From NCBI GenBank assembly GCA_025360005.1, contig JANYDA010000030.1, positions 1 through 64,000 of the forward strand: DNA of 64,000 nucleotides, given 5' to 3'. This document shows, piece after piece, positions 22,632 to 39,771 of the stretch. Each line of letters opens with the position of its first letter. Positions within the stretch are counted from its first letter, which is position 1. The notes under the pieces are model-generated. The model saw nothing but the letters and a program-made list of their open reading frames with translations. It did no database searches and was not told the origin of the DNA. The position numbers and the translations under genes were made by a program. This DNA is from Fibrobacteria bacterium. Lineage in GTDB: Bacteria > Fibrobacterota > Fibrobacteria > UBA11236.

Positions 22632-24110
22632 ATGCAAAGATATTTGTACGCGGCACTGGTGTGCGGCAGTTTGCTCGGGCTTGGTTCCCTCGAAGCCAAG
22701 ACCCTCAGAGTTCCCGGAGATTTCCCCACCATAAATGGTGGTCTCACCAGTGCTGATTATGGCGATACGGTCTTGGTCTCTCCCGGTCGTTATTATGAAA
22801 ACGTCACCCTCGTACAGGGCGTCATCCTCAAAGGCGTAAACCAGCTTACCACCATCATCGACGGCATGCGCAAAGCTCCGACGATTTACGCTGTTACCGG
22901 ATCGGAAATCAGCAACTTCACCATCACCAACGGCATTGACGGAATCCTCTGCGAAAATTCATCGCCTTACATCCATCACAATTGGATTTTGGACAACCAG
23001 GGCGCCGGCATAGGCGCCTTCATTTCGCTGCCCCAAATTTATGACAACGTGATCTACGGGAACCGTTGGTCCGGCATTTTGGCCTGGGGCGCAAAATCCT
23101 TGGATACGCGCATCGAGAACAACGTCGTGATGCGCAACGGCTATAGCGGACTGACCTTGAAAGGCCCTTGCCGCATCGTGATTCGCAACAATATCGTGCA
23201 GGAAAACCGTGAATACGGAATCTACTCGGATCCGGCATCGGGACAATCCCAGATTGTCTATAACAACATTTACAAGAACGTCATCCCATTCAACCGCTAT
23301 ACCAAAATCAACAAGACCAACATCTCCCATGACCCGTTGTTCCTGAGCCCCAGCCTGGGCGATCCCAACTACTTTGTAGCCGCCAAATCCCCGATGGTAC
23401 GCCGTGGCTATGGCCAGGTAGACATTGGTCTTTTGGCCAAAGATCAAGTGGTCTCCGTGGACGGCGACCGCGACAATGACGGCATCCCGGATTCCAAGGA
23501 TGTCTGCCCGGATTTGGCGGAAGACCAAGACGGATTCCAGGACGAGGACGGTTGCCCGGATTACGACAACGACAATGATGGCATACCGGACAATAAGGAC
23601 AAATGCCCGAACGAGCCGGAAGACAAAGACGGATTCGAGGATCAGGACGGTTGCCCGGACCCCGATAATGACAAGGACGGCGTGCCCGATGTCCGGGATA
23701 ATTGCCCGGATGTGGCCGGCGATGCCGCCCATAACGGCTGCCCGTATAAGACCCCCGCCAAGATCGAGGACAACTTCATCTTGGAAGGCGTGACCTTCCG
23801 GACCGGCAGCGCGGAAATCACCGAAGACTCTTTCGCCAAGCTGGACGAAGTTTACGAGCAGTTGGCGAAATATTCCGACCGCAAATATGAAATCGCCGGC
23901 CATACGGATAATACCTCTACCGATAAAATCAACATCAAGCTATCCCTGGACCGTGCCAACGCAGTCCGCGAATACCTTGTCAATCGCGGTATCGAGGGCA
24001 GCCGCCTCGTCGGCAAGGGTTTCGGTTCTTCCCGTCCGAAAGCGGACAACAAAACCGCAGCGGGCCGTTCCATCAATCGCCGCATCGAATTCTACCGGAT
24101 TAAGAAATGA
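22632..24110 (+). CDS. OmpA-family protein with beta-helix head and TSP3 repeats
   Basis: 492 residues. After a signal peptide (about 1-22) comes a right-handed parallel beta-helix of the NosD/CASH type (about 25-265; repeated NNIVQENREYGIYSD-like turns). It is followed by four acidic thrombospondin type 3 calcium-binding repeats (277-372; DNDGIPDSKDVCPD and DNDGIPDNKDKCPN patterns), then an OmpA C-terminal peptidoglycan-binding domain (about 380-492; AGHTDNTSTDK, LSLDRANAVREYL, SINRRIEFY). Such proteins anchor the outer membrane, or a complex, to the wall. It is the first gene of the envelope cluster and overlaps the next gene by ATGA. Beta-helix plus TSP3 plus OmpA is a rarer arrangement than barrel plus TSP3 plus OmpA. 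Confidence 0.92.
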   Translation: MQRYLYAALVCGSLLGLGSLEAKTLRVPGDFPTINGGLTSADYGDTVLVSPGRYYENVTLVQGVILKGVNQLTTIIDGMRKAPTIYAVTGSEISNFTITNGIDGILCENSSPYIHHNWILDNQGAGIGAFISLPQIYDNVIYGNRWSGILAWGAKSLDTRIENNVVMRNGYSGLTLKGPCRIVIRNNIVQENREYGIYSDPASGQSQIVYNNIYKNVIPFNRYTKINKTNISHDPLFLSPSLGDPNYFVAAKSPMVRRGYGQVDIGLLAKDQVVSVDGDRDNDGIPDSKDVCPDLAEDQDGFQDEDGCPDYDNDNDGIPDNKDKCPNEPEDKDGFEDQDGCPDPDNDKDGVPDVRDNCPDVAGDAAHNGCPYKTPAKIEDNFILEGVTFRTGSAEITEDSFAKLDEVYEQLAKYSDRKYEIAGHTDNTSTDKINIKLSLDRANAVREYLVNRGIEGSRLVGKGFGSSRPKADNKTAAGRSINRRIEFYRIKK

Positions 24111-26368
24111 AAAAGGGAGTGGCAGCTTTGAACTACAGATCCATATTCCTCACAGCTATGGTTGGCGCCTCGGTCTCTTTCGGCCAGCTGAAAGCCAGCC
24201 CTTATAAGCCGCATGCTTACCAGCAAAATGACTGGTTCTCGGAATTCGGTGATAATACCGCACTCTATGTTAATCCGGCTTCGATCGCGGAAAACGATCA
24301 AATCGAAGTCGCAGTCGGGTTGTTCCAGACCATTTCCGGAAAGGCCGGCCAGGAATTCATCAGCGCGGTGCATCCTTTCGGCTACAACCATTCCTTGGGT
24401 CTCACTGTATTTGAAAACGGTTCGGCCATCGATGGCAGCAATTCCGTTTACTTGGAAAACGCCTATACGGTGGGTTATGCCCTGCGCAGCCCGTTCTTCC
24501 TCCCCAATGGAATTTCCAATAAACTGGCGTTTGGCATCAACGGAACCGTCATCCAGTTCAACGCCTTTGGGGCCGTGAAAAGCCTCGGATATGGCGTCGA
24601 TTTGGGCGTAAGCTACAATCCTTTCAGCACATCCCGTTGGGGCCATCTTCAAATCGGCGCTTCCGTCCAGAATGTCCTCCAGCCCAAGGTAGAGCTGCCG
24701 GATGGAAACGGGAACTATAGTATCCCCCGTAATCTGAACACGTCTTTGTTCTGGCGCGGATTTAACAATCGTCTGGAGTTGGCGGGAGATATCAGCGTTA
24801 TCGATTTGACTCATGATCAGCTCGAGGGCACCGGTAATGGCAAGGAAATGGTGGGCTCCGTGCGAACCACCTATTATCTCAGCCCCTTGCTGGGCATCAA
24901 GGCCAAAATCACCAAGCTCGGTTATCCCGTGATCGGCGCCACCGTGAACGTCAAGCGCGTCAACCTGTTCCGCTATCTCCAGCTGGATCTGGACATGTCG
25001 CATGACCGTCTGACCACGCTAACCGGCGGCACGGATGAAGGCCGCGGCTTCGTTTGGAATTTCAAGGCCATCACCCGCGTGGGCCCCACCCGCGAAGAGC
25101 GTATCGGCGAAGCCCGTTATCGTCGCCTGAAGATCGAACCGGAAGATGCCTATCGCGAAGCCATGCGCTTGTACCTGGCCCGGAAGTTCCTGTTGGCCTC
25201 TTACGCCTTCGGCAAGGTCATCACCAAGTATCCGTCCTTCCACCTTGTCGATCAGGCCGCCTTCTATAAAGGCAAGTCCTTTGAAAACCTGCGTATGCAC
25301 CAGGCCGCCCGCGACGTCTATAACGATGCCCTCAAGCGGTATACGGATTCCGATCAACGCCCCAAATACATGTTCCAGCTGATGAACATCGATTACAAAG
25401 AAGGCAAGTTCGACGAGGCAACCAAGCGTTACCAGCAAATCGTCAACTTGTACCCGGAATCGGATGTCAAGTCGGACGCCGACTATGTCATGGGCCAGAT
25501 GCGGTATATCCAAAAAGATTATCACGGGGCGATTTCCCTGTTGTCGCCCATCCTTCCGGGCAACGCCAACTACATCTACGCCCGTTTCACCTTGGGTATG
25601 TCCTATGTCAATCTGAAGAAATACAAGGAAGCGGAAACCGCCTTCCAGGACATCATGGAAAGCAAACCCTCCAATGCTTCCGAGCAGGAAATGAAGGAAG
25701 TCACTGCCGTGAAGCTGGGCCATATCAATTTCGGCAAGGAACCGCCGCAGTTGGTCAAAGCCGCAGAATTTTACGGATCGGTATCTCCTTCCAGCTCCAA
25801 GTATGACGAAGCGTTGTTGGGTCTGGCCTGGTCCTTTATCAAGGTGCAACGGCCCAAGGAAGCCGCCGGATATGCCCAGGACATCATTTCCAAGACCCCC
25901 AACAGCCTCTTGGTGCCGGAAGCGCATCTTCTGCTTGGCTATTGCGCCTACTTCGACAAGGATTATGACAAGTCCATCAAGGAGTTCGATAACGCCATCG
26001 AATTGGCGGAAAAGAAGGCTGTCGCCGTAGCCGACATCCAGAAGAAGAAGGAAGAGAATATGGCGAACAGCGTGGACTTCCAGGCCGTGCAAAAGGAAGC
26101 CTTATTGCTCTCCAACCAGTTGCCAACGCCCCGGGTGATGGAGAAACGCGATCAGCTGCGCCCCAAGTTTGAAGAGATCCATAAGAAGATCGAGGCCTAT
26201 CTGGAATTCCTCCGCGAAGTGGAACAGATCGAGAAGTTCCTCCAGAATAAGGATCGTATCATCAAGGACGCGAAATTCACCAAGGCCACCGTGATCAACA
26301 TCAGGGGCGGCGCGGGCGAGAAGAGCGGGCCTTCCAAGCAAGAGCTTGAAAATCTGGATGTGAAGTAA
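24107..26368 (+). CDS. PorV/PorQ-like barrel fused to TPR region
   Basis: 753 residues with a signal peptide (1 to about 28). The first 330 residues look like an outer-membrane barrel of the PorV/PorQ/FadL-like type: DNTALYVNPASIA near the N-terminus, then many amphipathic strands of alternating polarity. From about 335 to 640 there are TPR-like helical pairs (FLLASYAFGKVITKYPSF, RYQQIVNLYPESDVKSDADY, AETAFQDIMESKPSN), followed by a coiled coil (about 640-730). The start codon overlaps the OmpA-like stop (ATGA), so the two are translationally coupled. A barrel carrying a periplasmic TPR arm would suit a docking platform for the OmpA-like and TPR neighbours (inference). Confidence 0.82.
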   Translation: MKKGVAALNYRSIFLTAMVGASVSFGQLKASPYKPHAYQQNDWFSEFGDNTALYVNPASIAENDQIEVAVGLFQTISGKAGQEFISAVHPFGYNHSLGLTVFENGSAIDGSNSVYLENAYTVGYALRSPFFLPNGISNKLAFGINGTVIQFNAFGAVKSLGYGVDLGVSYNPFSTSRWGHLQIGASVQNVLQPKVELPDGNGNYSIPRNLNTSLFWRGFNNRLELAGDISVIDLTHDQLEGTGNGKEMVGSVRTTYYLSPLLGIKAKITKLGYPVIGATVNVKRVNLFRYLQLDLDMSHDRLTTLTGGTDEGRGFVWNFKAITRVGPTREERIGEARYRRLKIEPEDAYREAMRLYLARKFLLASYAFGKVITKYPSFHLVDQAAFYKGKSFENLRMHQAARDVYNDALKRYTDSDQRPKYMFQLMNIDYKEGKFDEATKRYQQIVNLYPESDVKSDADYVMGQMRYIQKDYHGAISLLSPILPGNANYIYARFTLGMSYVNLKKYKEAETAFQDIMESKPSNASEQEMKEVTAVKLGHINFGKEPPQLVKAAEFYGSVSPSSSKYDEALLGLAWSFIKVQRPKEAAGYAQDIISKTPNSLLVPEAHLLLGYCAYFDKDYDKSIKEFDNAIELAEKKAVAVADIQKKKEENMANSVDFQAVQKEALLLSNQLPTPRVMEKRDQLRPKFEEIHKKIEAYLEFLREVEQIEKFLQNKDRIIKDAKFTKATVINIRGGAGEKSGPSKQELENLDVK

Positions 26369-26397: not shown

Positions 26398-29300
26398 ATG
26401 GAGACAGTTGTGACGAAATCGACCCTTTTCCTCCGATTGGCCCTCGCCGGGGCTGTCGGGCTTTTGTCCGCCACTCAGTCGCATGCCGATGGCAAGCTTC
26501 AAGAGCTGAAGAAGCGCAAGATGGAACTCGACCAGGCCGCAGCAAAGTGCGATGCGATGGATGAGTCGGATAAAGCGGACTGCATGGCCAAGCGGCAGAA
26601 GAAGGTGGACAAGTACAAGGAAGAGTTGGAAGCCTACAAAACCGATTTGGCCAAGGAGCAGTCCAAGAACGCCCAACGGGAAGCCAAGGACAATCCGGCC
26701 GATTTCAGCGCCAAGATCCAAAGCCGCGAGCAGAGCATCAAGGAATTCCAGGATTACGTCAACAGTTGCACGGATAAGACCGATCGCTGCGCATCGGCCT
26801 TGTTCCAGGTAGCCAACCTAACCTACCAGAATGAGGAGGATGGCTTCCTCATCAAGCAGACCAAGTATGAGGCCGATTTCACCAAGTGGGAAGATCGGGA
26901 TAAGAAAGGCGCTGAACCGGTGCAACCCCGCCGGGATCATAAAAATTCCATTCGATATTTTGAACGCTTCCTCAAGGAATATCCCAATCACAAACAGGTT
27001 CCCGAAGCGCTGGTGCGCGCCGCCTTCATCGCCGACATGCTGGGAAGCGAAGACCGCGCTTACGAATACCTGAACCTTCTCGTCACCCGCTTTCCCGATC
27101 ATCCTCTCAACATCCAGGCTCATCTGCGCTTGGGTGAATACTGGCTCTTGAAGAGGAAATACCTCAAGGCCATTGAGCAATACGAGAAGGTACCCTTGGA
27201 TTACCCGGGGAATGAAGCCGGCTTGGCGCTTTATCACCGCGCTGAGTCCTATTACAACCTCGCTGATTTCGAGAATGCCGCGAAATGGTATTACGAATAC
27301 GTGGTCCGGGCCGATGCCGGCAAGCTGAAGGCCGATCTTCGCGACGAAGCCATGTCCTTCATGGCCGCCAGCTGGGCGGATATGGACAATGGCTTCGATG
27401 TAGCCGAGAAATTCCTACGCGCCCATGGAAATCCGAAATGGGAAAAGGATGTGTATTACGAAATAGGCCTCAAGAACAAAGCGCATGATCGCCTTGATGA
27501 AGCCGTTAAATCCTTCAAATTCTTATTGGAAAAGGATCCGGCTTATCCCAAGGCTCCTACCGCGGACCTGAACATCGTAGAGGTCCTGGTGTTGCAAAAG
27601 AAGGCCGAGGAAGCGCAACAGGCCAGAGTGGATTTGGTCAAGCGTTACGAGTCCAATTCGGAATGGTCCAGCAAGAATTCCGGCAATGCGGAAGCCACGG
27701 CTGAGGCCCAAAAGGCCATCAAACTGGCCATGTACCATATCCCCGTTTATTATCATCAGAAGGGCGATGAAGGCAAAGGCGATCCGGATATGCTTCATAA
27801 AGCCGAAGAAGGCTACCGCAATTATCTGTCCCGTTACAGCAATGAACAGTCTTGGGATGTATACCAAGTCCACCAGAATCTAGCCGTGCTTTACAACAAG
27901 CTGAAGGACTTCAAGCATTCCGCCGATGAATGGCAATGGTGCGCTTCCGCGAATACCGATCGATTTGGAAAGCTGCCTTCGGAAAAGAAGGACATCGTAA
28001 GCAAAGGCGATGCGGCCTACAATGCCGTGCTGATGATGGATGAGAACCGGAAGTTGGCGTTGGCCCGGGCCAAGGGCGACACCGTAGCGGCGTACAATTC
28101 GCAAGAGACGAAGGATTATTTCGGAGCCGTCGAAAAATACATGGGCCAATACGGAAAGTCCAATTCGGCGCCCGAGCTCGCCTACAATGCGGCTTTCGTG
28201 GATTACCAGGCCAAGCAATACAAGGAAGCCATCCAGAGCCTTTCCAAATTGGCGGAGGCCTTTCCGAATCATGAGCACAATGTGCTGATCCGCCGCGCCC
28301 TGGCCCAGAGCCTCTTGGAAGACGGGCAATACGATATGGCGGAGAAGCAGTTCACGGTCTTGAAGAACAAGCTTTGCCCTTCCGACAAGCAATGCCCCGA
28401 AATCAAGAAAGCCTTGGCTTCCACGATCTTCAAGCAGGCCGATACCAAAGCCAAGGCAGGGGATCATGCCACCGCCGCCCAGAAGTACTTGCAGTTGGCC
28501 CGTGATTTTCGCGACGTCGACATCGCCGACAAGGCCTTGTTCGAGGCCGGCACTAATTTCGATTCCGCCGGCCGCACGGAAGACGGCGTCCGTACCTTGC
28601 TGCGGATCCATGCCGAATACCCCAAATCCGAATTGCGCACCAAGTCCATCTTGAAGGGCGCTTCCATGTACATGGCCAAGAAGAAGTACCGCGAAGCGGG
28701 TGAGACCTTCCTTCTCATCCAGAAGAACTATCCGGATGATTCGCTCGGTTTCCAGTCCATTGCCTGGGCCGCGGATGCCTATGAGAAGGTTCCGGATCCC
28801 CACAGGGCCGGCCAGACCTACGAATCCGCTTTCCGCCTTTACCCCACCAACATGAAGACGGCGTCCTACCTGTACAACGCCGGCCAGCTCTACGAGAACA
28901 ACAAGGAGTACGGCGATGCCATCGCCGTGTACAAGCTCATCGGCGAGAAATATCCCAAGAGCCAATACGCCATCGAAGCCATCTTCTCCGTTCCCCTCTT
29001 GCTTGAGAAGCGGGGCGATTATGCCAAAGCCGCGGCCGCTTATGAAGACTTCGTCCGCGAGTACGAGAACGATAAGAACAAGTTGATCCGCGCCCACCTC
29101 GGCGCCGGCAAGAACTACGAAGCTTTGGGCAATGAAACCAAGGCCCTGGATCATTTCGGTAAGGCAATCGCCATACAGAAGAAGGATGGCGAGAAGGCAT
29201 TGATCCCTCCCGCCATCGCTGCGGAAGCAGCTTACCGCGCGGGCGATATCTACTTCAAGAAGATCAAGAAGGTCCGCTTGGACGGAACCAAGGGCCAGAA

Positions 29301-30141
29301 CGCCCAGCGCGTTACCGAGATGCAGAAGAGCCTGGTTCCTTCCATCCAGTTCTACGCCAAGTCCGTGGAGATGGCGGAAGAAGAATGGGCGTTGCGTTCC
29401 ACCATGCGCATGGGCGATCTCTTCTACGCCATCGCTTCCATTTCGGACAATGAACGTGCCGCAGGACTTTCCGGTGACGATCGCATCCGCGCCAAGATCG
29501 AGAGCAAAGCCGGCATTCCCGGGTATCTGGAGAAGGCCACGGAACTTTATAAGAAGAATCTGGAGGTCGCCAACAACCAGGGAATCGAAAGCCCCTGGAT
29601 CGACAGCTCCGGCGTGCGTTTGATGCAGGCCTATGCTTTCAAGGGCGAAGCCTTGGAAGACTTGAGTAAGCTGTTCCTGCAAGTGCCCCTTCCCAAAAAG
29701 GCCGGGGAAGATGAGAAGAACCAGTTGAAGCAGGCCTCGGAAGAAACGAAGGAAAAGGCCATAGCCAACTATAAGGAAGGCTTACTGGCGGCCCAGACCT
29801 ACCACATCGACAACGGCGACCGGCAAAAGATCGTTTCCAATCTGCGTGCATTGCAAGCGGATGCCCCCGAACTTAACGCGCAGGTTACCGCGCGCCCCAA
29901 AGCCGCTCCCCAGGACGCGCAAGCCGCAACGCCCGGAAGGCCCGCCGACAGCACGCCTGCGGCTGAATTCAAGGATGCCAAGTACGATGCGAATATGAAG
30001 CGCATCTCCAAGATTTATGAGAACTCATCGTTGAGCGAAGATCAAAAGGTCGAACTGTTGTTGCAGATGGAAACGGAAGCCAAGCGCGAGATCAGCGAGA
30101 TGAATGCTGAGATGGCGAATACGCCTTCCGACGGAAACTAA
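26398..30141 (+). CDS. Giant periplasmic TPR protein (1247 aa)
   Basis: The signal peptide (about 1-31, ending SHADG) is followed by a charged coiled segment (about 32-110). From about 125 to 1130 there is an almost continuous array of tetratricopeptide-like repeats, recognisable from recurring A..Y..AI..Y..-(I/L)...YP patterns (AIEQYEKVPLDYPGNEAG, AIAVYKLIGEKYPKSQYA, AAAYEDFVREYENDKNK). The tail is Ala/Pro-rich and charged. TPR arrays bind partner proteins. In myxobacterial gliding and Tol-like systems similar large TPR proteins sit in the periplasm next to TolQR-type motors. It follows the PorV-like gene by 29 nt and is followed by a terminator-like hairpin before the tolQ-like gene. It is far longer than YbgF/CpoB, so orthology to that protein is unlikely. 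Confidence 0.85.
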   Translation: METVVTKSTLFLRLALAGAVGLLSATQSHADGKLQELKKRKMELDQAAAKCDAMDESDKADCMAKRQKKVDKYKEELEAYKTDLAKEQSKNAQREAKDNPADFSAKIQSREQSIKEFQDYVNSCTDKTDRCASALFQVANLTYQNEEDGFLIKQTKYEADFTKWEDRDKKGAEPVQPRRDHKNSIRYFERFLKEYPNHKQVPEALVRAAFIADMLGSEDRAYEYLNLLVTRFPDHPLNIQAHLRLGEYWLLKRKYLKAIEQYEKVPLDYPGNEAGLALYHRAESYYNLADFENAAKWYYEYVVRADAGKLKADLRDEAMSFMAASWADMDNGFDVAEKFLRAHGNPKWEKDVYYEIGLKNKAHDRLDEAVKSFKFLLEKDPAYPKAPTADLNIVEVLVLQKKAEEAQQARVDLVKRYESNSEWSSKNSGNAEATAEAQKAIKLAMYHIPVYYHQKGDEGKGDPDMLHKAEEGYRNYLSRYSNEQSWDVYQVHQNLAVLYNKLKDFKHSADEWQWCASANTDRFGKLPSEKKDIVSKGDAAYNAVLMMDENRKLALARAKGDTVAAYNSQETKDYFGAVEKYMGQYGKSNSAPELAYNAAFVDYQAKQYKEAIQSLSKLAEAFPNHEHNVLIRRALAQSLLEDGQYDMAEKQFTVLKNKLCPSDKQCPEIKKALASTIFKQADTKAKAGDHATAAQKYLQLARDFRDVDIADKALFEAGTNFDSAGRTEDGVRTLLRIHAEYPKSELRTKSILKGASMYMAKKKYREAGETFLLIQKNYPDDSLGFQSIAWAADAYEKVPDPHRAGQTYESAFRLYPTNMKTASYLYNAGQLYENNKEYGDAIAVYKLIGEKYPKSQYAIEAIFSVPLLLEKRGDYAKAAAAYEDFVREYENDKNKLIRAHLGAGKNYEALGNETKALDHFGKAIAIQKKDGEKALIPPAIAAEAAYRAGDIYFKKIKKVRLDGTKGQNAQRVTEMQKSLVPSIQFYAKSVEMAEEEWALRSTMRMGDLFYAIASISDNERAAGLSGDDRIRAKIESKAGIPGYLEKATELYKKNLEVANNQGIESPWIDSSGVRLMQAYAFKGEALEDLSKLFLQVPLPKKAGEDEKNQLKQASEETKEKAIANYKEGLLAAQTYHIDNGDRQKIVSNLRALQADAPELNAQVTARPKAAPQDAQAATPGRPADSTPAAEFKDAKYDANMKRISKIYENSSLSEDQKVELLLQMETEAKREISEMNAEMANTPSDGN

Positions 30142-30493: not shown

Positions 30494-31105
30494 ATGGAAC
30501 TGATTTTAAAGGGCTTTCAAGGCGAGGGAAAATTCTACATGTCGGTGATCTTGTGCCTGGGGATTATCTCCCTGGCCATCATCGCGGAGCGCTTCTACTA
30601 CATCTATGTGAAGTCCTCCGCCGGTCGCGCGAACTTCATGCGCAACATCGCCCAGCTGCTCCAGACCGGTCGCGTTGCCGAAGCCGGCCATCTGGCCGCC
30701 AGCCAGAACTTCCCTCTCGCCAAGATCATTTCCGCCGTGTTGCAGAACAAGGCTAAAGGACAGGCCGCGATTGAGAAGGCCGTGGATGAGGTCTACTTGA
30801 CCGAAGCCCCCCGCATCAACCGTTACCTGAACCTGCTGCCCGCCTTCGCCAATATCGCGATGCTTTGCGGCCTGCTGGGCACCATCTTCGGTCTGATTCT
30901 GGCTTTTGACGCCGTTGCCAATCTTCCGGCCGCCCAGCGTCCCCAGGCCCTCGCCTCCGGTATCTCCATCGTTATGGTGAACACCTGGTCCGGCTTGGCC
31001 ACCGCCATTCCCATCTTGCTGCTGCACGGATTGCTGTCCATGCAGTCCGAACGTCTTCAGGAAGAGATGGAAGAAAAGGCCGTGAAGGTGATGAACCTCC
31101 TCTAA
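30494..31105 (+). CDS. TolQ/ExbB/MotA-family proton channel subunit
   Basis: 203 residues with three transmembrane helices in the TolQ/ExbB arrangement: one near the N-terminus (about 16-37, VILCLGIISLAIIAERFYYI), a long cytoplasmic loop, then two (about 112-140 and 152-183). The family block ANIAMLCGLLGTIFGLILAFDAV, containing the conserved GLLGT helix start, and GISIVMVNTWSGLATAIP, carrying the conserved Thr/Ala face, are intact. This is the pentameric stator that, with TolR/ExbD-type partners, converts proton flow into movement of a periplasmic effector. It heads a run of four genes ending in the AgmX-like effector. Confidence 0.92.
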   Translation: MELILKGFQGEGKFYMSVILCLGIISLAIIAERFYYIYVKSSAGRANFMRNIAQLLQTGRVAEAGHLAASQNFPLAKIISAVLQNKAKGQAAIEKAVDEVYLTEAPRINRYLNLLPAFANIAMLCGLLGTIFGLILAFDAVANLPAAQRPQALASGISIVMVNTWSGLATAIPILLLHGLLSMQSERLQEEMEEKAVKVMNLL

Positions 31106-31163
31106 GAAGAAGCGTGGGACCCGCGATGCGCGGGTCCTTTACACTTTTTTAAAAGGCAAGGGT

Positions 31164-31976
31164 ATGAAAAAAGCAAGAACGAAAAAACACCATAGCAAAG
31201 AACTCGATCTGATTCCGGTCATGAATCTGTTCTCGATTCTGGTGGTCACGGTTATCTCCATGGCCCAGTTTGAAAAACTGGGCGTATTGGAACTGTGGTT
31301 GCCCGAACGCGGCGCACCGAATCCGGAGCAGCAGAAGACCGACATCGATGAAGGCCTCCTCAATCTGACCGTGATCATTACCGATAAAGGCGTGACCATC
31401 GGCGCTGGCGGCGGTTTCCAACCCACTATCTATTATCAGGAAGAAGTAGAGTATCGCAGCCGCTCCGACCAGAAGGTATTCCGAAAGGTGTACGTTGCCG
31501 GTGAAGAGGTGAAGTCTCCCACGGACGGAAAGGTCATGACGCCTTACGAACGCGAGACCATCATGCTGAACTCAGTCATCAAGAAGGACTCCGCGGATCC
31601 CGGCACGTACCAGTACGCCGCCATCGATCCCGAGGGCAACGCGATGATTGACACGGCCGGTAACTGGTACGCTACCGTACCCGCCAATGGCGCCCTTTAC
31701 CGGGTGGTCGGCGACGAGACCTTGAAGCACATGGATCCCCGGAGCGCGGCGTTCTGCAAGGTGGAAAAGCTTTCCGCCTACCAGGAAGTGGCCAAGACCC
31801 TGGAAAAGATCCACATGCTGTATAGCCAAAGGGATCCCCTCCCCGCGGACGTGGACGACGTGGTTATTCTCGCCGACGAGAATGTCATTTATGACAAGGT
31901 CATCCAGATGATGGATGCCTGCAAGTCCGCCGGGTTCGACCGCGTGGCCTTGTCCTTGATTGGAGGATCGGTTTAA
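31164..31976 (+). CDS. TolR/ExbD-like protein lacking the transmembrane Asp, enlarged periplasmic domain
   Basis: 270 residues. The N-terminal basic segment, then ELDLIPVMNLFSILVVTVIS, matches the TolR/ExbD membrane signature, in which the residue after P-(L/V)-(I/M) is normally the proton-carrying Asp. Here it is Asn 21 (codon AAT, 31224-31226). The periplasmic part starts ExbD-like (LNLTVIITDKGVTIGAGG), is interrupted by about 110 extra residues, then returns to the family C-terminal fold (VVILADENVIYDKVIQMMDACKSAGF). It overlaps the next, Asp-containing, paralog by 1 nt (TAATG). I infer that the two form a hetero-oligomer in which only one subunit carries protons. Confidence 0.85.
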   Translation: MKKARTKKHHSKELDLIPVMNLFSILVVTVISMAQFEKLGVLELWLPERGAPNPEQQKTDIDEGLLNLTVIITDKGVTIGAGGGFQPTIYYQEEVEYRSRSDQKVFRKVYVAGEEVKSPTDGKVMTPYERETIMLNSVIKKDSADPGTYQYAAIDPEGNAMIDTAGNWYATVPANGALYRVVGDETLKHMDPRSAAFCKVEKLSAYQEVAKTLEKIHMLYSQRDPLPADVDDVVILADENVIYDKVIQMMDACKSAGFDRVALSLIGGSV

Positions 31977-32464
31977 TGGCCAAGCGTAAGATCAAAAGAC
32001 AGCCGGAGGCGGCCCTTATCATCACGTCGCTCGTGGACGTGTTCGTTATCGTGCTGGTATTCCTTTTGCGTTCGGTTTCTTCCGAAGGCAATCTGATGAC
32101 CTCGGCAGATAACCTGGTGCTTCCCATGTCGCAACGCTCCAAATCGCCGACCGAGGTTTCCTTGACCATCATCGGCGATCAAAAGCACATCACGGTGGAT
32201 GACCAGGTGCTGATGGACACGGAATTGGTACGCAAGCAGGACAGCCTGTTGGTGAAACCCGTTCTCGATGTGCTTTCTAAAAAGCGCGATGAGGAACGCA
32301 AAGCCGAAGTGCTGGGCCTCATCAAGGAAGCCACCGGCAAGGTGGTAGTGCAATTCGACAAGAACACTCCGTATGATATCGTCACCAAGATCATGGCGAC
32401 CTGCGGCTACGCGGGTTACAACAACATCAAGTTCGCCGTGACCAAGAAGAACGAGGAGGGCTAA
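31976..32464 (+). CDS. TolR/ExbD-family proton-conducting subunit
   Basis: 162 residues: a basic N-terminus, one transmembrane helix with the conserved Asp (D21 in ITSLVDVFVIVLVFLL), and a periplasmic ExbD/TolR domain (VSLTIIGDQKHITVDDQVL ... YDIVTKIMATCGYAGYNNIKFAV). This is the partner that should line the proton path with the TolQ-like protein. The start overlaps the preceding stop (TAATG) and the next gene starts directly after its stop (TAAATG), so the stoichiometry is probably controlled by translational coupling. Confidence 0.92.
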   Translation: MAKRKIKRQPEAALIITSLVDVFVIVLVFLLRSVSSEGNLMTSADNLVLPMSQRSKSPTEVSLTIIGDQKHITVDDQVLMDTELVRKQDSLLVKPVLDVLSKKRDEERKAEVLGLIKEATGKVVVQFDKNTPYDIVTKIMATCGYAGYNNIKFAVTKKNEEG

Positions 32465-33427
32465 ATGGCGCAAGATTTTTCAGCGCCCAAGGGCGCAGTT
32501 CAAGATCCGCTCATCGCCAAGATGGAAGTGGAATCCGATAAGCGTCTCGGTAAGTTCCTCGGTGTTTTCGCGATCTTCGGCGGCGCCCTCGTGGGTTATG
32601 CCTTGACTGTGGAAGTGATGATTCCGGTGGCGCTTTACGCGACCACTAAGGATGATACTTCGCAAGTGGTGATGAAACTCGCCGACGTGGAAAAGAAGAA
32701 GGATGAAGAGAAGAAGAAGCTGAAGAACGCTCCGCCCAAACCCCGGAAAAAATCCGGCGGCGGCGGAAAGCCGCACGGACGGGGCAACCCCAACGCGCCG
32801 GTAACGCAGGCGGCTTTGAAGCTGATCACTTCCCGGACCACTTCCTCATCCTTGTCCAGCTACGACTTGATGAATCAGAAGTTCGCCAAGGATCTCGATA
32901 AGGTCATCAACAACGTTTCCGGTCTCACCAAAACGGGGCAAACCCGTCTCGGCGGCCGGCGCGGAAAAGTCGACGGAGGCTGGAATGACGGTTACGCCGT
33001 CGGCGGTTCCGGAGGCGTCGATGATCTGTTGGGCGGTCTTTGGGGCGGAGATGCCGGTCCTCTCGGGGTGAAAGCCAAGGGCGGTCTGGGATTGAAAGCG
33101 CCTTCGGCTTCCGATATTGACATGGGTCAGGAAAGCGGCCAGCGTTCCACGGAGTCTATTCTCCGCGTTATTCGGCAGCATACTCCCGGCTTGCGTCAGA
33201 CGTACAACAAGTTCCTGAAGACCAATCCCGGCTTCAAAGGCAAGATCACCTTGAAGTTCGCGATTGCTCCGAGCGGTTCCATTGTGGAGCTCACGGTGAT
33301 GGGAACGACCACGGGCGTTGCCGAGTTCGATTCCGAGATCCGCGAGAGAGTCAGGACGTGGAGATTCGAACCCGTCAAGGGCAAGTCGAACGACGTCGTG
33401 ACCGTACCGTTTACGTTCTCGGAATAA
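32465..33427 (+). CDS. AgmX/PglI C-terminal domain, TonB-like energy transducer
   Basis: 320 residues built like TonB: a cytoplasmic N-terminus, one transmembrane helix (about 32-56), a charged Lys/Glu then Pro/Lys/Gly-rich extension (KKKDEEKKKLKNAPPKPRKK), a Gly-rich flexible stretch (about 170-215), and an AgmX/PglI-type C-terminal domain (about 225-320). Blocks in that domain include ILRVIRQHTPGLRQTYNKFL, GKITLKFAIAPSGSIVEL and REDSEIRERV-like RTWRFEPV. In Myxococcus such proteins belong to the gliding apparatus. More generally the domain is a TonB/TolA-like periplasmic head pulled by a TolQR-type motor. It closes the motor operon and a strong terminator follows. The outer-membrane partner may be the barrel at 33554 or the PorV-like protein at 24107 (inference). 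Confidence 0.9.
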   Translation: MAQDFSAPKGAVQDPLIAKMEVESDKRLGKFLGVFAIFGGALVGYALTVEVMIPVALYATTKDDTSQVVMKLADVEKKKDEEKKKLKNAPPKPRKKSGGGGKPHGRGNPNAPVTQAALKLITSRTTSSSLSSYDLMNQKFAKDLDKVINNVSGLTKTGQTRLGGRRGKVDGGWNDGYAVGGSGGVDDLLGGLWGGDAGPLGVKAKGGLGLKAPSASDIDMGQESGQRSTESILRVIRQHTPGLRQTYNKFLKTNPGFKGKITLKFAIAPSGSIVELTVMGTTTGVAEFDSEIRERVRTWRFEPVKGKSNDVVTVPFTFSE

Positions 33428-33553: not shown

Positions 33554-34819
33554 ATGGTTCATAATCGGCTCAAGCTCACGGCGCTGGGATTCCTCGTTTT
33601 TGGAACGGTCCAGACCTCATGGGCAACGTATTCCCGCGTCGAATCGATGGGGAAGCGGGCCGATTTTTTCATGGACGATATCAGCATTTTCGATAACCCG
33701 GCCAACATGAATATCTTTCCCAACTTCCTAATCGGAGAGTTGGGTGTTTATCGGCAGGGTGCGGGGGACACCTCCGCCAACGTGCGCCGCAATGCGGACC
33801 CCGCCAATAGCTGGTTCGGCGGCATTTTCTCCTATTCGCTGTCCAAGAATAAAGAGTCCGGGAACCTGTATCCGCAGATCAGTTTGGGTGGCGCTTTTAA
33901 TCGCGTGGATGAAGAACTCGCGGCCATTATCCCGGATATCGCGGACGGATACGCCGTACCCAAGCCGGCCACCAATTTCGACGGCTTTTTAGGAATGACG
34001 CTTTCCAACGGCGGCATGCTGGGCTCCCACGTTTACGTGGCGATGCAGGAAGGCGCCAATCTTACCAACGGATCCATCCAAGGTCAGGCCGATCCGAACA
34101 TCAATGTGTATGCCTTGCGCGGTGACTTGGGCGTGAACTGGCCCATTGCACGCAATGTGGACGGCGAACTTTCCTTAGGAACAGCCTCCATCAGCTATGG
34201 ACCCCAGTCCATTGATCCGGAGATGTCCTATTTCGTCAAGGGACGTGCCTTCTCGACTTTGGAAATCATCAATGGCGAATTGGTGCCCATCTTCAACTAC
34301 AGCGTCCTGAAGGCTCCGGGAAGGGAATTGACCAAGCTGCATTTCGGTTTGGGCGTCAATGTCTCGCTGGATCGCGGTTTCTTCTGGCTGGGCGCGCAAG
34401 GCCTTTTCGATGAGGACGACAAGAGCGGTATGGATACCACGGCGGGAGGATTGGTCCGGTACGACTCCCATTCGACCGCCAAGACCAATCAGAGCATTCG
34501 CGGCGGCCTGGTTTCATTCGGCATTGAACGCAATGTCTGGTGGGATTGGCTGGTTCTCCGCGTTGGTGGCCAAAAGGAAATCACTTATCGCGATCAATCC
34601 AGCAATCAGACGAACCAGACTTACAATTTCATCTATACCAATCCGACCAACGACGGGTCCATCAATGATGCGGTCGGTTTCGGTATCGGCATCAACATCG
34701 AGGAAAAGCTCAAGGTGGATGCCACCCTGGCGGAGGATCTTCCCTACACCTTCGGTAATCTCTTCTCGGGCCCCATCCATCATTTGATCTCGCGCATTTC
34801 CGCCACCTATTCCTTTTAG
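33554..34819 (+). CDS. Outer-membrane beta-barrel protein (PorV-like N-terminus)
   Basis: 421 residues with a signal peptide (about 1-25, ending SWA). AGGAGA lies 8 nt before the ATG. The mature protein opens with FFMDDISIFDNPANMNIFPN, an NPA turn like that of PorV/PorQ/FadL-type barrels, and continues with about 14 amphipathic strands. The last residues, HLISRISATYSF, end in an aromatic as expected for a BAM-targeted barrel. The gene is separated from the motor operon by a terminator but lies next to it on the same strand. Function unknown; transport or a docking site for the motor head are possible. Confidence 0.85.
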   Translation: MVHNRLKLTALGFLVFGTVQTSWATYSRVESMGKRADFFMDDISIFDNPANMNIFPNFLIGELGVYRQGAGDTSANVRRNADPANSWFGGIFSYSLSKNKESGNLYPQISLGGAFNRVDEELAAIIPDIADGYAVPKPATNFDGFLGMTLSNGGMLGSHVYVAMQEGANLTNGSIQGQADPNINVYALRGDLGVNWPIARNVDGELSLGTASISYGPQSIDPEMSYFVKGRAFSTLEIINGELVPIFNYSVLKAPGRELTKLHFGLGVNVSLDRGFFWLGAQGLFDEDDKSGMDTTAGGLVRYDSHSTAKTNQSIRGGLVSFGIERNVWWDWLVLRVGGQKEITYRDQSSNQTNQTYNFIYTNPTNDGSINDAVGFGIGINIEEKLKVDATLAEDLPYTFGNLFSGPIHHLISRISATYSF

Positions 34820-34960
34820 TATCTTCGGGCCATGACCCGATTGCGCGGCTTCCGGAATGCGTTTCGTTGGGGTTTGCGGCTCCGCAGGAACGCACATCCG
34901 ATAGGGAAGGGATTCTTCCGGAAAAACGCCGTTCTCCCCGAAATTGGAATTCTAGCCAAG

Positions 34961-35380
34961 ATGAATACCGGTTTCCTCAAGTTCCGGCCATTCCGGTTGG
35001 GCGCGTTCCTCCTTGCCTTCGCGTGCGGTTGCGCGGTTCTTCTGGCAGGGTGCGGATCCTCCACCAAGACCATGCAAAAGAACCTTGAGGAGATCGCAGG
35101 GGAGGACCTGCAGGATATCGTGAAGGAGATTCCCACTCCGGCCAAGGCATCTTTACTGGCGAAACCGTATTTCAAGGTGGACGAGTTCCAGGAGTTCCAT
35201 GGAGACACGGCGATTGTGTACCAAGCCAAGGCCACTTTGGTGTTTTTCTATCTCGATCCCTCGCTGGATCTCTGCCAAGTCCGCAAGTACCGCTACAAGA
35301 CCTCTTCGGGTCTATGGGACAGGTACGACGTAAAGCTGATGCACTTCCCGAAAAAATATTCTGGCCTTGCATCCCAATAG
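34961..35380 (+). CDS. Small lipoprotein of unknown function
   Basis: 139 residues from the ATG at 34961. This start gives a proper lipoprotein signal ending in lipobox LLAGC (Cys at about residue 30). The open frame reaches back to 34832, but that extension is Arg-rich and unlikely to be translated. The mature part is short and mixed: a helical segment (KNLEEIAGEDLQDIVKEIP), then a beta-rich C-terminus (TAIVYQAKATLVFFYLDPS, QVRKYRYKTSSGLWDRYDV). No family recognised. It is the last gene before mreB. Confidence 0.7.
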   Translation: MNTGFLKFRPFRLGAFLLAFACGCAVLLAGCGSSTKTMQKNLEEIAGEDLQDIVKEIPTPAKASLLAKPYFKVDEFQEFHGDTAIVYQAKATLVFFYLDPSLDLCQVRKYRYKTSSGLWDRYDVKLMHFPKKYSGLASQ

Positions 35381-35396
35381 TTTTTTAGAATACACT
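35367..35396 (+). promoter_or_regulatory. Putative promoter of the mre operon
   Basis: TTGCAT (35367-35372) and TACACT (35391-35396) are separated by 18 bp and lie partly inside the end of the preceding lipoprotein gene, about 70 nt upstream of mreB. AAGGAGGG at 35447-35454 is the ribosome site. Confidence 0.45.
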
Positions 35397-35463
35397 GGAA
35401 CAGGGAAACATTAGTTTCTAGATTTTTTTGATGTCCCCTACGATTTAAGGAGGGATTCCCCCT

Positions 35464-36486
35464 TTGTTTGGCTTCCTTTCCAGCGATATCGGCATTGATT
35501 TAGGCACCGCGAACACCTTGGTCCACGTAAGCGGTCGTGGCATAGTCATCAACGAGCCCTCGGTGGTAGCCGTTGAGCGGCGTACCAATAAGGTCCTGGC
35601 CATCGGGTCCGAGGCAAAGCGTATGCTCGGCCGCACACCCGGTGAGATCATCGCCGTCCGGCCCATGAAGGACGGCGTAATCGCGGACTTCCAGATGGTG
35701 GAAAGTCTCTTGACCAGGCTCATCCAGATCGCCCAAAAATACCCATTGTTCTTCCTCCGGCCACGAATTGTGGTGGGGGTTCCTTCCGGCATCACGGAAG
35801 TAGAAAAGCGGGCCGTTCTGGAGTCCGCCCAGAAGGCGGGCGCTCGTGAGGTCTACCTGGTGGCGGAGCCCATGGCCGCCGCCATCGGCATGGGTATCCC
35901 GGTCGAGGATCCCAGTGGCAACATGATTATCGATATCGGCGGCGGTACGTCCGAAATCGCCGTGATCGCCCTCTACGGCATCGTCTGCGACGCCTCCGTG
36001 CGCGTGGGCGGGGACGAGATGGACGAGGCCATCATCAATTACCTGAAGAAGAATTACAATCTCCTGGTCGGCGAAGGCACGGCAGAGAAGATCAAAATGC
36101 AAATCGGCTCCGCCTATCCGCTCGACCATGAGTTGGAGATGGAAGTGCGCGGCCGCGACCTGATGGCGGGAATCCCGCATACTTTGAAAATCACCTCGGC
36201 GGAAATCCGGGAGGCCTTGGCCGAGCCGGTCAATGCCATCGTCGAGGCCGTGAAACGCGCCCTGGAGCAAACGCCTCCCGAATTGTCGGCGGACATCCTG
36301 GAAAAAGGAATCGTAATGACCGGCGGCGGATCGCAATTGCGCGGCCTGGATGAACTGCTCCGCCAGGAGACCAATCTTCCCGTGAACGTGATCGATGATC
36401 CCCTGGTCTGCGTGTGCAAGGGCACGGCGCGCATCTTGGAAGACATGGACAAGTATTACAAGGTGTTGATGGAGGCGAGCCGGTAG
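35464..36486 (+). CDS. mreB: Rod shape-determining protein MreB
   Basis: 340-residue bacterial actin. Nucleotide-binding blocks: phosphate-1 [14 protein letters not shown], phosphate-2 [17 protein letters not shown] and the adenosine motif [17 protein letters not shown]. The start is TTG, chosen because a perfect AAGGAGGG lies 9 nt upstream and the protein then begins [15 protein letters not shown], as in the family; there is no in-frame ATG near. MreB filaments guide the elongasome, whose other parts (MreC, MreD, PBP2, RodA) follow in the same operon. This implies a rod-shaped cell. Confidence 0.97.
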
Positions 36487-36588
36487 AATGGCAACGGTCC
36501 TTGCGAGCGCGGGAAGCGCTCGACGGAACGCTTCATTCAAAATTCTCATACCTTCACCCCAGCATCAATACCTCTCCGGAACCGCACT

Positions 36589-37413
36589 GTGAGCATCATC
36601 GACTGGTTTCTCCGGCTCTTCACGTTGGGGAAGGGCAGCATTTCCCTTCTCCTCTCCATCGTCTTCTGCGCGGTCTTGATTTCGCTCAAGCCTCCGGAAA
36701 GGCAAACCTTCCACGACGTGATGATCAGCACCTTCCTGTATCCCGCCCAAGCCATCCTTTCCCGCCTCAACCGCACCATCCGGGTGTTCAAGGAAAATGA
36801 CGAGCTGAAACAACAGAACTCCGCCCTGAGACTGGAGAACGATTACTTGGTGCAGGCCATCAAGGAACTGCCGCGCGTCCAGGAAATGGAAGCCTTCGGC
36901 GAACGCAGCAAGCTGAAGCTGAAGATGGCGCAGATCAGCGCGGCCGATCCGGGCCGCTATTCCACCAATTGGGTCATCAACCTGGGCCGCGAGGATTCCG
37001 TCGACGTGAACATGCCCATCATGACCTCGTTCGGCGTAGTGGGCCAGACGGCCAAATGCTACCGCAGCCATTGCCTGGTACAGGGGTTGAGCGATCCCAG
37101 CTGCAAGGTTTCCGTATTATGCAGCCGCACCCGCGTGAACGGTATGCTGGAAGCCTGGCCCGGCGGCCGTTTGGTGGCGCGCTTTTCCGTGGATGCGGAC
37201 ATTCTGGCAGGCGACACCCTGGTGACCTCGGGCATGGGCGGGGTCTACCCCAAGGGGCTTTTGGTGGGTGTGGTTTCCGGCGATCACCAGGATGCCAGCG
37301 AAGGCGGGGACATCCTGAAAGGCATGGAAGTCAAACCGTTCCAGAATCCGCATCGGGTGGAAGAAGTATTCGTGCTGATACGCCCGGATTCCTGGACCCT
37401 GGGGAAGGAATGA
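36589..37413 (+). CDS. mreC: Rod shape-determining protein MreC
   Basis: 274 residues: one N-terminal membrane helix (about 17-36), a coiled coil (about 62-100; FKENDELKQQNSALRLENDY), then the two-lobed MreC beta domain (NWVINLGREDSVDVNMPI, GVVGQTAKC, DTLVTSGMGGVYPKGLLVG). The start codon is GTG at 36589, about 100 nt after the mreB stop, with a weak ribosome site. The stop overlaps the mreD start (ATGA). MreC links MreB filaments to PBP2-RodA. Confidence 0.95.
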   Translation: MSIIDWFLRLFTLGKGSISLLLSIVFCAVLISLKPPERQTFHDVMISTFLYPAQAILSRLNRTIRVFKENDELKQQNSALRLENDYLVQAIKELPRVQEMEAFGERSKLKLKMAQISAADPGRYSTNWVINLGREDSVDVNMPIMTSFGVVGQTAKCYRSHCLVQGLSDPSCKVSVLCSRTRVNGMLEAWPGGRLVARFSVDADILAGDTLVTSGMGGVYPKGLLVGVVSGDHQDASEGGDILKGMEVKPFQNPHRVEEVFVLIRPDSWTLGKE

Positions 37414-37889
37414 TCAATTTCCTGAAGAGCATGAGTTTTTTGGTGCTGGCACTGATCCTGCAACAAACCTTGGTGCAGATCATCGCCATCGGATCCATCA
37501 AGCCGGATTTGATGATGGTGGTATTGGTGGCGGTTTCCATGCGTTACGGATCCGTGGTAGGGGTTTTCAGCGGACTAACCATCGGCCTGATCCAGGATGT
37601 CTATACCATCGAAGCGCTGGGAGCCAACGCCATGGCCAAATGCCTGGTGGGCTATTTTACCGGCCTGTTGGATGAAAAAGTGATCAAGGTGATGCCGGCC
37701 ACCAAAGTGCTGTTCCTGGCCGTGGCTTTCATCGTCCATGACACCGTTTACGGATTGGCCGCCGGGTTCCATGGATCCATGTTCTTCCAGGCTTTGCTGA
37801 ACAAGACGGTCCCTTCCGGCATCTATACCTTGCTGGTGGGTTCCCTGGTCTTCTACTTCCTGGTAGCCCCCTCCCGAGCGGAGGCCTGA
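37410..37889 (+). CDS. mreD: Rod shape-determining protein MreD
   Basis: 159 residues with five or six transmembrane helices and the typical segment GSIKPDLMMVVLVAVSMRYG, then GVFSGLTIGLIQDV. The start is the ATG overlapping the mreC stop (ATGA), preceded by GGGGAAGGA; in-frame codons further upstream are shadow of mreC. The gene order is canonical and the next start follows 1 nt after its stop. Confidence 0.92.
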   Translation: MINFLKSMSFLVLALILQQTLVQIIAIGSIKPDLMMVVLVAVSMRYGSVVGVFSGLTIGLIQDVYTIEALGANAMAKCLVGYFTGLLDEKVIKVMPATKVLFLAVAFIVHDTVYGLAAGFHGSMFFQALLNKTVPSGIYTLLVGSLVFYFLVAPSRAEA

Positions 37890-37890
37890 C

Positions 37891-39771
37891 TTGCAATCGA
37901 ATCCGTCTTCCCGGTTGGATGACCCCTTCTACCGGGGAGCCATCGGCCGGAACATCGTCATCATCTTCGGTTGCATGCTGCTGGGCCTCACCTCGCGCCT
38001 GTTCTATCTGCAGATCATCAAGGGCTCGTACCACCAAAAGCTTTCCGAACAGAATTCCATGCGCTTGCAGGTGGTGCATGCGCCGCGCGGGCTCATCTAT
38101 GATCGCAATGGCGCCTTGATCGCGCGCAACCGGCCGTCTTACCAGGTGGCTATCCTGCCCACCCGCTTGAAGGAACCCAAACGAGTCCTGGCGAACCTGA
38201 TGCGTTTCCACGACAGCGCCGGCACGCGGATTTTCGATTCCGTGCTGGTCCTTTGGAGCATGGAGCGCGGAAAGTGGAAGAAGTTCCAACCGCTGGTAAT
38301 CCTGGAGGACGCTTCGCCGGAAATCGTAGCCATGGTGGAGGAACACCAATTGGACTTGCCCGGCGTGGTGACGGTGATGGATTCGCGGCGTTCCTATCCC
38401 TTCGGGTACAATGGAGCGCATGTCATCGGCTACATGGATGAGATCAAGGAAGATGAGTTGGACTCGTACGTCTCCCGCAAAGAGGAGTCCGGCGACAGCC
38501 TGCCATACGCCAAAGGCGATCGCATCGGGCGCAAGGGATTGGAAAAGACTTACGAGCCCATCTTCCGCGGAAAGGACGGCGTCCGCTATATCAAGGTGAA
38601 CGCCTTCGGGAAGGAAATGGAGGTCATCAAGGAGATGCCGCAGGTCAACCCCGTTCCCGGCAGCAACCTGATCACCACCTTGGACATGCACCTGCAATGC
38701 CTGGCGGAATCCCTGATGGCGGACACGGTCCGCGGAGCCGTGGTGGCCATCGATCCGCGCAACGGTGAGGTGCTGGTAATGGCCTCCAGCCCGCGCATGG
38801 ACGCCAACATCTTCTCCCTGTCGAAGGAGCGCAGATCCAAGGAATGGGCCAAGCTGGCCTTGGATCCCTCCATGCCGCTGAACAATCGCGCCACCGTGGG
38901 CGGATATGAACCCGGTTCCACCTGGAAGGCGATCATGAATATCGCCGGACTGCAATCCGGCAAGATCGAAGTGAATGAGAAAATGCCCAAGGCCTGCACC
39001 GGAGGCTACCGCTTCGGCAACCGGTTCTGGCATTGCTGGGATCCCAAGGGCCACGGATCGATTGCCATGATCGACGCCTTCACCCAGTCCTGCGACACTT
39101 ACTACTACCAAGTGGGCCTTGTCATCGGCATGGACATCATCAATCGGGTGGCGCGCGAATTCGGCTTCGGGGATACCACCGGCATCGATATCGACGAGGA
39201 ACGCTCCGGCATGCTGGTGGACTCCGCCAGTTATACCAAGAAATTCCATCGCCGCGGTTGGACTTGGACGCGCGGCCTGGTCCTGAACCTTTCCATCGGC
39301 CAAGGCCAAATAGCCACGCCCCTGCAATTGGCCAATTATGCGGCGGGATTGGGGAACGGCAAAGTCCTTTACAAGCCCCACCTTATCAAAGAGGTGCGCG
39401 ATCGGGCCGGACATACGCTGGAGACGTACCAACCCGAAATAATGCGGGAGCTGGACATGACGCAGGAGCAGCACGAGATAGTGCTGAAGGCGATGGAGGC
39501 GGTAGTCAACTCCCCGCGCGGCACGGGCGGAAGGGCCCGGCTCACGGACGTGATCGTGGGAGGCAAGACCGGCTCCGCCGAAAACAACCATGGGGGGAAG
39601 ACCAACGCTTTGTTCATCGGCGTGGCGCCCTTGTACCAACCGGAAATCGCGATTGCGGTTGTCCTCGAAAACGTAGGCCACGGAGGTTCCATTGCGGCAC
39701 CTATTGCAGGGGCGATTTTCCGCGAATACTTCAAGCGGAAGATGGCAGGAGAAAAGCAGCAAGTCCTTTGA
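37891..39771 (+). CDS. mrdA: Penicillin-binding protein 2 (elongasome transpeptidase)
   Basis: 626-residue class B PBP. A membrane anchor (about 22-42) is followed by the PBP dimerisation domain (APRGLIYDRNGALIARNRPS) and the transpeptidase domain with all three motifs: S343-T-W-K (EPGSTWKA), S400-C-D (QSCDTYYYQ) and K559-T-G (GGKTGSAEN). The start is TTG at 37891, 1 nt after the mreD stop and 6 nt after CGGAGG. It crosslinks peptidoglycan during side-wall growth together with RodA. The position in the mre operon separates it from the divisome homolog FtsI. Confidence 0.96.
   Translation: MQSNPSSRLDDPFYRGAIGRNIVIIFGCMLLGLTSRLFYLQIIKGSYHQKLSEQNSMRLQVVHAPRGLIYDRNGALIARNRPSYQVAILPTRLKEPKRVLANLMRFHDSAGTRIFDSVLVLWSMERGKWKKFQPLVILEDASPEIVAMVEEHQLDLPGVVTVMDSRRSYPFGYNGAHVIGYMDEIKEDELDSYVSRKEESGDSLPYAKGDRIGRKGLEKTYEPIFRGKDGVRYIKVNAFGKEMEVIKEMPQVNPVPGSNLITTLDMHLQCLAESLMADTVRGAVVAIDPRNGEVLVMASSPRMDANIFSLSKERRSKEWAKLALDPSMPLNNRATVGGYEPGSTWKAIMNIAGLQSGKIEVNEKMPKACTGGYRFGNRFWHCWDPKGHGSIAMIDAFTQSCDTYYYQVGLVIGMDIINRVAREFGFGDTTGIDIDEERSGMLVDSASYTKKFHRRGWTWTRGLVLNLSIGQGQIATPLQLANYAAGLGNGKVLYKPHLIKEVRDRAGHTLETYQPEIMRELDMTQEQHEIVLKAMEAVVNSPRGTGGRARLTDVIVGGKTGSAENNHGGKTNALFIGVAPLYQPEIAIAVVLENVGHGGSIAAPIAGAIFREYFKRKMAGEKQQVL

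Follow-up and report, generated by a model that had tools for sequence, protein, structure and literature searches.

Current models of rotation in MotAB, ExbBD and TolQR assume two equivalent, alternating aspartates, each acting in turn and turning the motor by 36 degrees per proton (PMC9389320, PMC12215075). A locus of a Fibrobacteria bacterium raises the question of what such a motor becomes when one of two TolR-like subunits lacks this residue. The window (the whole stretch of 64,000 nucleotides that was analysed) carries on its forward strand two adjacent genes, tolR1 (31164–31976, 270 aa) and tolR2 (31976–32464, 162 aa), the stop codon of the former overlapping the start codon of the latter in TAATG. 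Both products score above the PF02472 (ExbD/TolR) cut-off of 25.4 bits (43.7 and 52.4 bits, respectively). Residue 21 is Asn in TolR1 (AAT, 31224–31226) and Asp in TolR2 (GAC, 32036–32038), and family-wide alignments place both in one column, that of the proton-carrying Asp. The codons and alignments thus confirm an earlier note on this DNA, which had assigned the two residues to equivalent sites of the membrane helix. Because the proton-carrying helix Asp is missing, we class TolR1 as an Asp-less homologue and not as a functional ExbD/TolR.

The same note had credited TolR1 with about 110 extra periplasmic residues, and the length difference is indeed 108 aa. The AlphaFold2 model of TolR1 (mean pLDDT 86.4) shows a helix at residues 17–34 and a TolR-like periplasmic fold, within which an insert of about 120 residues (approximately 83–203; 31410–31772) is modelled as a confident, beta-rich block (pLDDT 88–98; 30 sequences). 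This insert does not appear to be a known domain, a question left by the note: it has no Pfam domain, and no fold in the PDB matched it at E ≤ 0.001, although the TolR core itself was recognised. The best PDB fold matches were MreB/Hsp70-like, had TM-scores of about 0.25 with E > 0.001, and were rejected as untrusted. The TolR2 model (mean pLDDT 79.6) matched the periplasmic domains of ExbD and TolR with a probability of 1.00. Comparison of the TolR1 and TolR2 sequences with those of solved structures gave no trusted match, and no viral relatives were found.

To assess the Asn within the phylum, we searched Fibrobacterota with two queries, TolR1 and its counterpart from another tandem pair of the same genome (contig C56), and scored the complete TolQ-TolR-TolR loci. 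In 114 distinct tandem pairs, the first TolR had N (78), G (25), S (5), A (5) or C (1) at the site and the second had D (114). Asp is therefore absent from the first subunit of every relative in the phylum, where the site varies among five non-acidic residues; the earlier note had named Asp in close relatives as a refutation, and this does not apply. The solo ExbD/TolR genes of the same genome all encode Asp at this site. Between two species of the genus, the dN/dS of tolR1 was 0.062/0.873, or about 0.07, a value indicative of purifying selection. Drift, a sequencing error and a pseudogene were considered as origins of Asn21 and were ruled out by the 114/114 conservation, the low dN/dS and a published proteome (see below). 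The gene order TolQ-TolR1-TolR2 was constant across loci. First-subunit ORFs of Fibrobacterota fall into at least three length classes (160–200, 260–330 and 430–450 aa), the longest of which occurs in other families of the phylum (loci L109–L118).

Outside Fibrobacterota, genome contigs were scanned with aligned second paralogs, the Asp-bearing ones, as the query, which left the first paralog unselected; the scan yielded 511 relatives, of which 80 loci were retained. All of its pairs from KSB1, Calditrichota, Fermentibacterota and Gammaproteobacteria were Asn/Asp. In further, targeted searches with the second paralog, the pairs were Asn/Asp in 30/30 cases from Gammaproteobacteria and in 30/30 from Calditrichota/KSB1, where the second paralog was matched in 76 of 82 genomes. 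The first paralog had Asn in all eight loci of Fermentibacterota. Asp/Asp pairs were limited, among the loci sampled, to Myxococcota (18 of the 22 scored) and Bdellovibrionota (5 of 6), and the second paralog carried Asp in every sampled case, within and outside Fibrobacterota. Judged from these sequences, the asymmetry is far wider than one genome or phylum. One myxobacterial contig (G170, C335:10383–11866) contains three consecutive ExbD/TolR genes.

The history of the pair was examined on a tree of 144 rows from which the trait column had been removed. First paralogs, second paralogs and solo genes separated with 2 changes, compared with a mean of 52.6 for shuffled labels, and the firsts and seconds formed two clades with matching sub-clades, as expected of an obligate pair. 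The two TolR types thus represent two ancient clades born of an ancient duplication. On a concatenated tree of 68 pairs, the first paralog changed between Asp and non-Asp 3 times, always in a 16-row branch that holds Myxococcota and Bdellovibrionota, and column 21 of the second paralog did not change at all. Column 15 of the first paralog, six residues before the site, underwent 12 acid/non-acid changes on the same tree. Outside the 16-row branch, column 21 of the first paralog shifted among N, G, S and A and was never acidic over about 40 substitutions per site, even though a single step would turn its Asn codons into Asp codons.

The pore subunit encoded immediately 5′ of the pair is a TolQ/ExbB/AglR-like protein (30494–31105, 203 aa; PF01618, 78.3 bits, above the cut-off). 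With the E. coli TolQ numbering checked against a PDB chain, it retains the equivalents of T145 and T178, which are invariant in 162/162 Asp-less-first loci, so the pore of these loci still looks proton-conducting. The equivalent of Glu173 (ExbB E176) is Ile in the window, and this Glu is lost in 156 of the 162 loci; it is kept in AglQ-type loci (10/10) and in standard ExbD-type loci (11/11). Of the other myxobacterial D/D loci, 22 of 47 have Lys at this position, and the D/D loci of bdellovibrios have a hydrophobic residue. With these D/D exceptions and 3 phylogenetically independent comparisons, the pattern is not independent of ancestry, and we did not retain a co-evolved compensation by TolQ. 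If both subunits were active, a second acid or a water wire would have to carry protons along TolR1. An acid does lie 8 residues before the site in 61/68 first paralogs, and the loss of Glu173 could mean that the path has been rebuilt; the same acid, however, is shared by standard ExbD and by first paralogs of the Asp type, sits at the cytoplasmic edge, and leaves no acid inside the helix, while that 6 residues before the site interchanges freely with Asn. We regard such a route as hardly credible. The earlier note had allowed that another helix acid might take over from the lost Asp, and the column counts rule this replacement out.

The surrounding genes for which coordinates are given here lie, like tolQ and the tolR pair, on the forward strand. 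Directly 3′ lies the gene of a TonB/GltG-like putative force transducer with an AgmX/PglI C-terminal domain (32465–33427, 320 aa), which scores 73.7 bits with NCBIfam NF033768 (cut-off 40), 79 bits with the GltG model, whose cut-off of 650 is not reached, and 24.0 bits with TonB_C, under the Pfam cut-off of 24.6. It is followed by a PopA-like outer-membrane porin gene (33554–34819, 421 aa; NF053618, 33.9 bits, below the cut-off), which adjoins the TonB-like gene in most Fibrobacterota loci checked, and then by mreB, mreC, mreD, a PBP gene and rodA. In the class, the motor operon, usually with the porin gene, stands directly 5′ of this mreB-mreC-mreD-PBP-rodA cluster (33554–40954 in the window); elsewhere in Fibrobacterota the porin linkage is kept and the mreB linkage is lost. 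In M. xanthus, AglZ foci depend on MreB. On the 5′ side of the motor genes are those of an outer-membrane OmpA-domain protein (22632–24110, 492 aa; PF00691, PF13229, PF02412), which combines a right-handed beta-helix, TSP3 repeats and an OmpA domain in one chain; of a 753-aa TPR protein (24107–26368; TPR families at residues 344–660), whose beta-barrel-like N-terminal half resembles PorV only weakly at its N terminus (E 0.022); and of a large periplasmic TPR protein (26398–30141, 1247 aa; TPR families). Their positions and sizes match FSU_2396, FSU_2397 and FSU_2398, respectively, of Fibrobacter succinogenes, a correspondence drawn from Fibrobacter synteny and masses.

Published data from this species show that the proteins are made. 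The membrane proteome of strain S85 lists FSU_2396 (OmpA), FSU_2397 and FSU_2398 (TPR), FSU_2400 (TolQ), FSU_2401 (ExbD, 32.44 kDa, pI 4.72), FSU_2402 (ExbD, 18.24 kDa) and FSU_2403 (TonB), the last three of which were detected on cellulose only (PMC4619616). A multi-protein complex that contains cellulases is reported to include FSU_2396 and FSU_2397 as well. FSU_2400–2403, a predicted operon, were more abundant on cellulose (1.50, 1.46, 1.73 and 1.22, respectively; PMC6851124). In two Fibrobacter loci of our set (L037 and L038), the first subunit has Gly at the site and a mass and pI of 32.44 kDa and 4.72, exactly those of FSU_2401, and the second has the 18.24-kDa mass of FSU_2402. As FSU_2401 is seen in the proteome and raised on cellulose, the Asp-less subunit is a real and regulated protein.

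The cellulose induction has been interpreted as that of a TonB-type cellodextrin importer (PMC6851124), in which case the operon would be an ordinary TonB-ExbB-ExbD energiser. The C-terminal similarity of the transducer to TonB agrees with this, although TonB_C stays below its Pfam cut-off and the gliding-type AgmX/PglI domain scores well above its own. An importer also sits poorly with two unlike TolR genes, with ExbD and TolR equivalog scores of 27.3 and 22.6 bits (cut-off 127.3, not reached), and with neighbours that are TPR, OmpA-domain and porin proteins. No TonB-dependent receptor was present among the operon genes examined, and the cellodextrin-import study itself found no MalA-like receptor (PMC6851124). 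We consider the importer very improbable.

Between tolQ and tolR1, a strong hairpin with a T-rich tract (31117–31151; MFE -25.5 kcal/mol, z -4.5) forms a candidate attenuator that might set the TolQ:TolR ratio; it is absent from the program's list of terminator-like sites. In the nearest species (G004), a hairpin of equal strength and unlike sequence occupies the same position, and in Fibrobacter the hairpin is not conserved. These features bear on a reading in which TolQ pentamers hold mixed homo- and heterodimers and the Asp-less TolR1 is a dosage brake, setting through its amount what share of the motors conducts. In this genus, the hairpin could control the relative expression of TolR, and on cellulose the tolR2 product of F. 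succinogenes rises slightly more than that of tolR1 (1.73 vs 1.46). But the hairpin lies 5′ of both tolR genes and, as noted, is not shared by Fibrobacter, and the strict 1:1 tandem in every phylum, with its ancient pairing, suggests a fixed partner. A dosage brake is improbable, if slightly less so than the importer.

We next compared the locus with known motors. The closest likeness is to AglRQS of Myxococcus, which serves Agl-Glt gliding and the Agl-Nfs spore coat: both have a TolQ-like gene followed by two unlike TolR-like genes, and a GltG/AgmX-type transducer with TPR and outer-membrane partners is present at the window as well. Of the Glt core, the window offers two TPR proteins, and no Glt-specific model (GltC, GltD, GltE) was matched. 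AglQ and AglS both carry Asp (PMC9389320), whereas the AglQ-position subunit is N, G, S, A or C in the window and most non-myxobacterial loci; the TolR1 insert of about 120 aa is a further difference. In M. xanthus, the AglQ D28N substitution abolished conductance and motility (PMC3858216). Because its first subunit is non-acidic, whereas the Asp of AglQ is essential, we do not file the locus as AglRQS itself. Luciano et al. 2011 (PMC3169522) list homologues of AglR/Q/S and of the Glt core in Gammaproteobacteria and in a single Fibrobacteres genome; the searched part of that text does not mention the loss of Asp, and it gives the length of AglQ as 162 aa. In myxobacterial genome G209, the first of two successive TolR proteins has 162 aa and an Asp28, and we take it to be the probable AglQ by length, residue and gene order. 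In a tree including it, this AglQ candidate falls at the base of the first side on a long branch (weak first-clade support, 64) and AglS on the second, so that an ancestral and a regained Asp both fit. With AglQ left out, the trees would be read most simply as a regain of Asp in Myxococcota and Bdellovibrionota.

Other motors are more distant. The window shares with the 5:2 complexes TolQR-TolA and ExbBD-TonB of E. coli the TolQ fold, the invariant pore threonines, single-helix TolR-like subunits with a periplasmic domain and a TonB-like transducer; in E. coli, however, TolR or ExbD is a homodimer with two Asp, whereas in the window the two subunits differ, just one of them has the Asp, and TolQ Glu173 is replaced. 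GldLM/PorLM of the type IX secretion system is also a proton-driven 5:2 motor linked to surface machinery, but shows no clear sequence relation to these motors (PMC9389320), whereas the Fibrobacterota TolR pairs are PF02472 proteins. 'Heterologous' axle-type gene pairs (TolR or vWA) beside a TolQ-like gene, including TolR pairs in PVC bacteria, were noted in 2025 in PVC bacteria and Proteobacteria (PMC12204202); the section consulted emphasises that the axle helices of the vWA proteins conserve an Asp, and describes no Asp-less partner. In the open-access literature, we found no prior statement of an Asp-less subunit.

Taken together, the locus probably encodes an Agl/Glt-type 5:2 motor in which a TolR1/TolR2 heterodimer forms the axle of a TolQ pentamer with a single proton-site Asp. 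The earlier note had suggested just such an asymmetric dimer, one subunit conducting and the other structural, and the findings support it in part. It would be the inner-membrane motor of an AglRQS-like trans-envelope machine, with TolR1 and TolR2 contributing the central two-helix axle and TolR2 alone bearing the proton-shuttling Asp. Each TolQ subunit would then give one power stroke, that is, five 72-degree steps and about 5 protons per turn, compared with the ten 36-degree steps and about 10 protons proposed for symmetric motors; half the protons would yield half the work per turn. The polarity of the axle would be permanent, the TolR2 arm driving and the TolR1 arm, with its extra periplasmic domain, being reserved for structure or output. 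Onward transmission of the force to the cell surface would fall to the TonB/GltG-like protein, the TPR and OmpA-domain proteins and the porin; in Fibrobacter, the setting would be growth on cellulose.

The main objection to the heterodimer, by analogy, is that AglQ D28N, with the Asp of AglS intact, mimics the natural N/D state and yet kills the M. xanthus motor, so that one Asp would be insufficient there unless other changes compensate. Either the M. xanthus lineage needs two sites, or N/D motors are compensated, or TolR1 lies outside the pore. A review leaves it unsettled if AglQ and AglS pair with each other or each with itself (PMC9389320). The third option would have a TolR2 homodimer with two Asp fill the TolQ pore, and TolR1 would be a membrane-anchored accessory, binding peptidoglycan or TPR proteins outside the pore and freed from the need for Asp. 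The large insert and the variation of residue 21 among non-acids (N, G, S, A, C) are what a repurposed subunit might show, and D28N demonstrates that a motor can fail in the mixed N/D state. Nevertheless, TolR1 retains a TolR-type helix, with a near-invariant P-x-M-[N] and a Pro 7 residues on in 57/68 first paralogs; an acid at its site is excluded rather than neutral; the matching sub-clades and the fixed gene order of the pair speak against an accessory; and AglQ, its D-type homologue, needs Asp for conductance, which places AglQ at the proton site. We therefore judge an accessory TolR1 unlikely.

If the heterodimeric axle is correct, it breaks the two-site symmetry assumed for MotAB/ExbBD/TolQR-type motors, and a deeply conserved one-Asp motor provides a natural experiment on protons and strokes per turn. 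The paradox is that Fibrobacterota, KSB1/Calditrichota, Fermentibacterota and the sampled Gammaproteobacteria normally have a state that is lethal in M. xanthus. More tentatively, and with the balance somewhat against it, the pairs may form a widespread class of 5:2 motors with one proton site per heterodimeric axle (a turn made in 72-degree steps and costing about 5 protons), within which the nested two-Asp pairs of Myxococcota and Bdellovibrionota regained their second Asp. For F. succinogenes, a major rumen cellulose degrader, the reading of the cellulose-induced operon would shift from a nutrient importer to a force-generating surface machine.

The window-type operon was not found in 3 of 6 species of its own genus (G001, G002 and G005, one of them 98% complete); the C56-type pair is present in 6/6. 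The C56 copy of the window genome (G000 contig C56, L039:3651–9560, minus strand) is a second TolQ-TolR(N)-TolR(D)-TonB operon, and it is followed by Wza-like (Poly_export/SLBB) and Wzc-like (GNVR) genes, so that an Asp-less motor there adjoins polysaccharide export genes.
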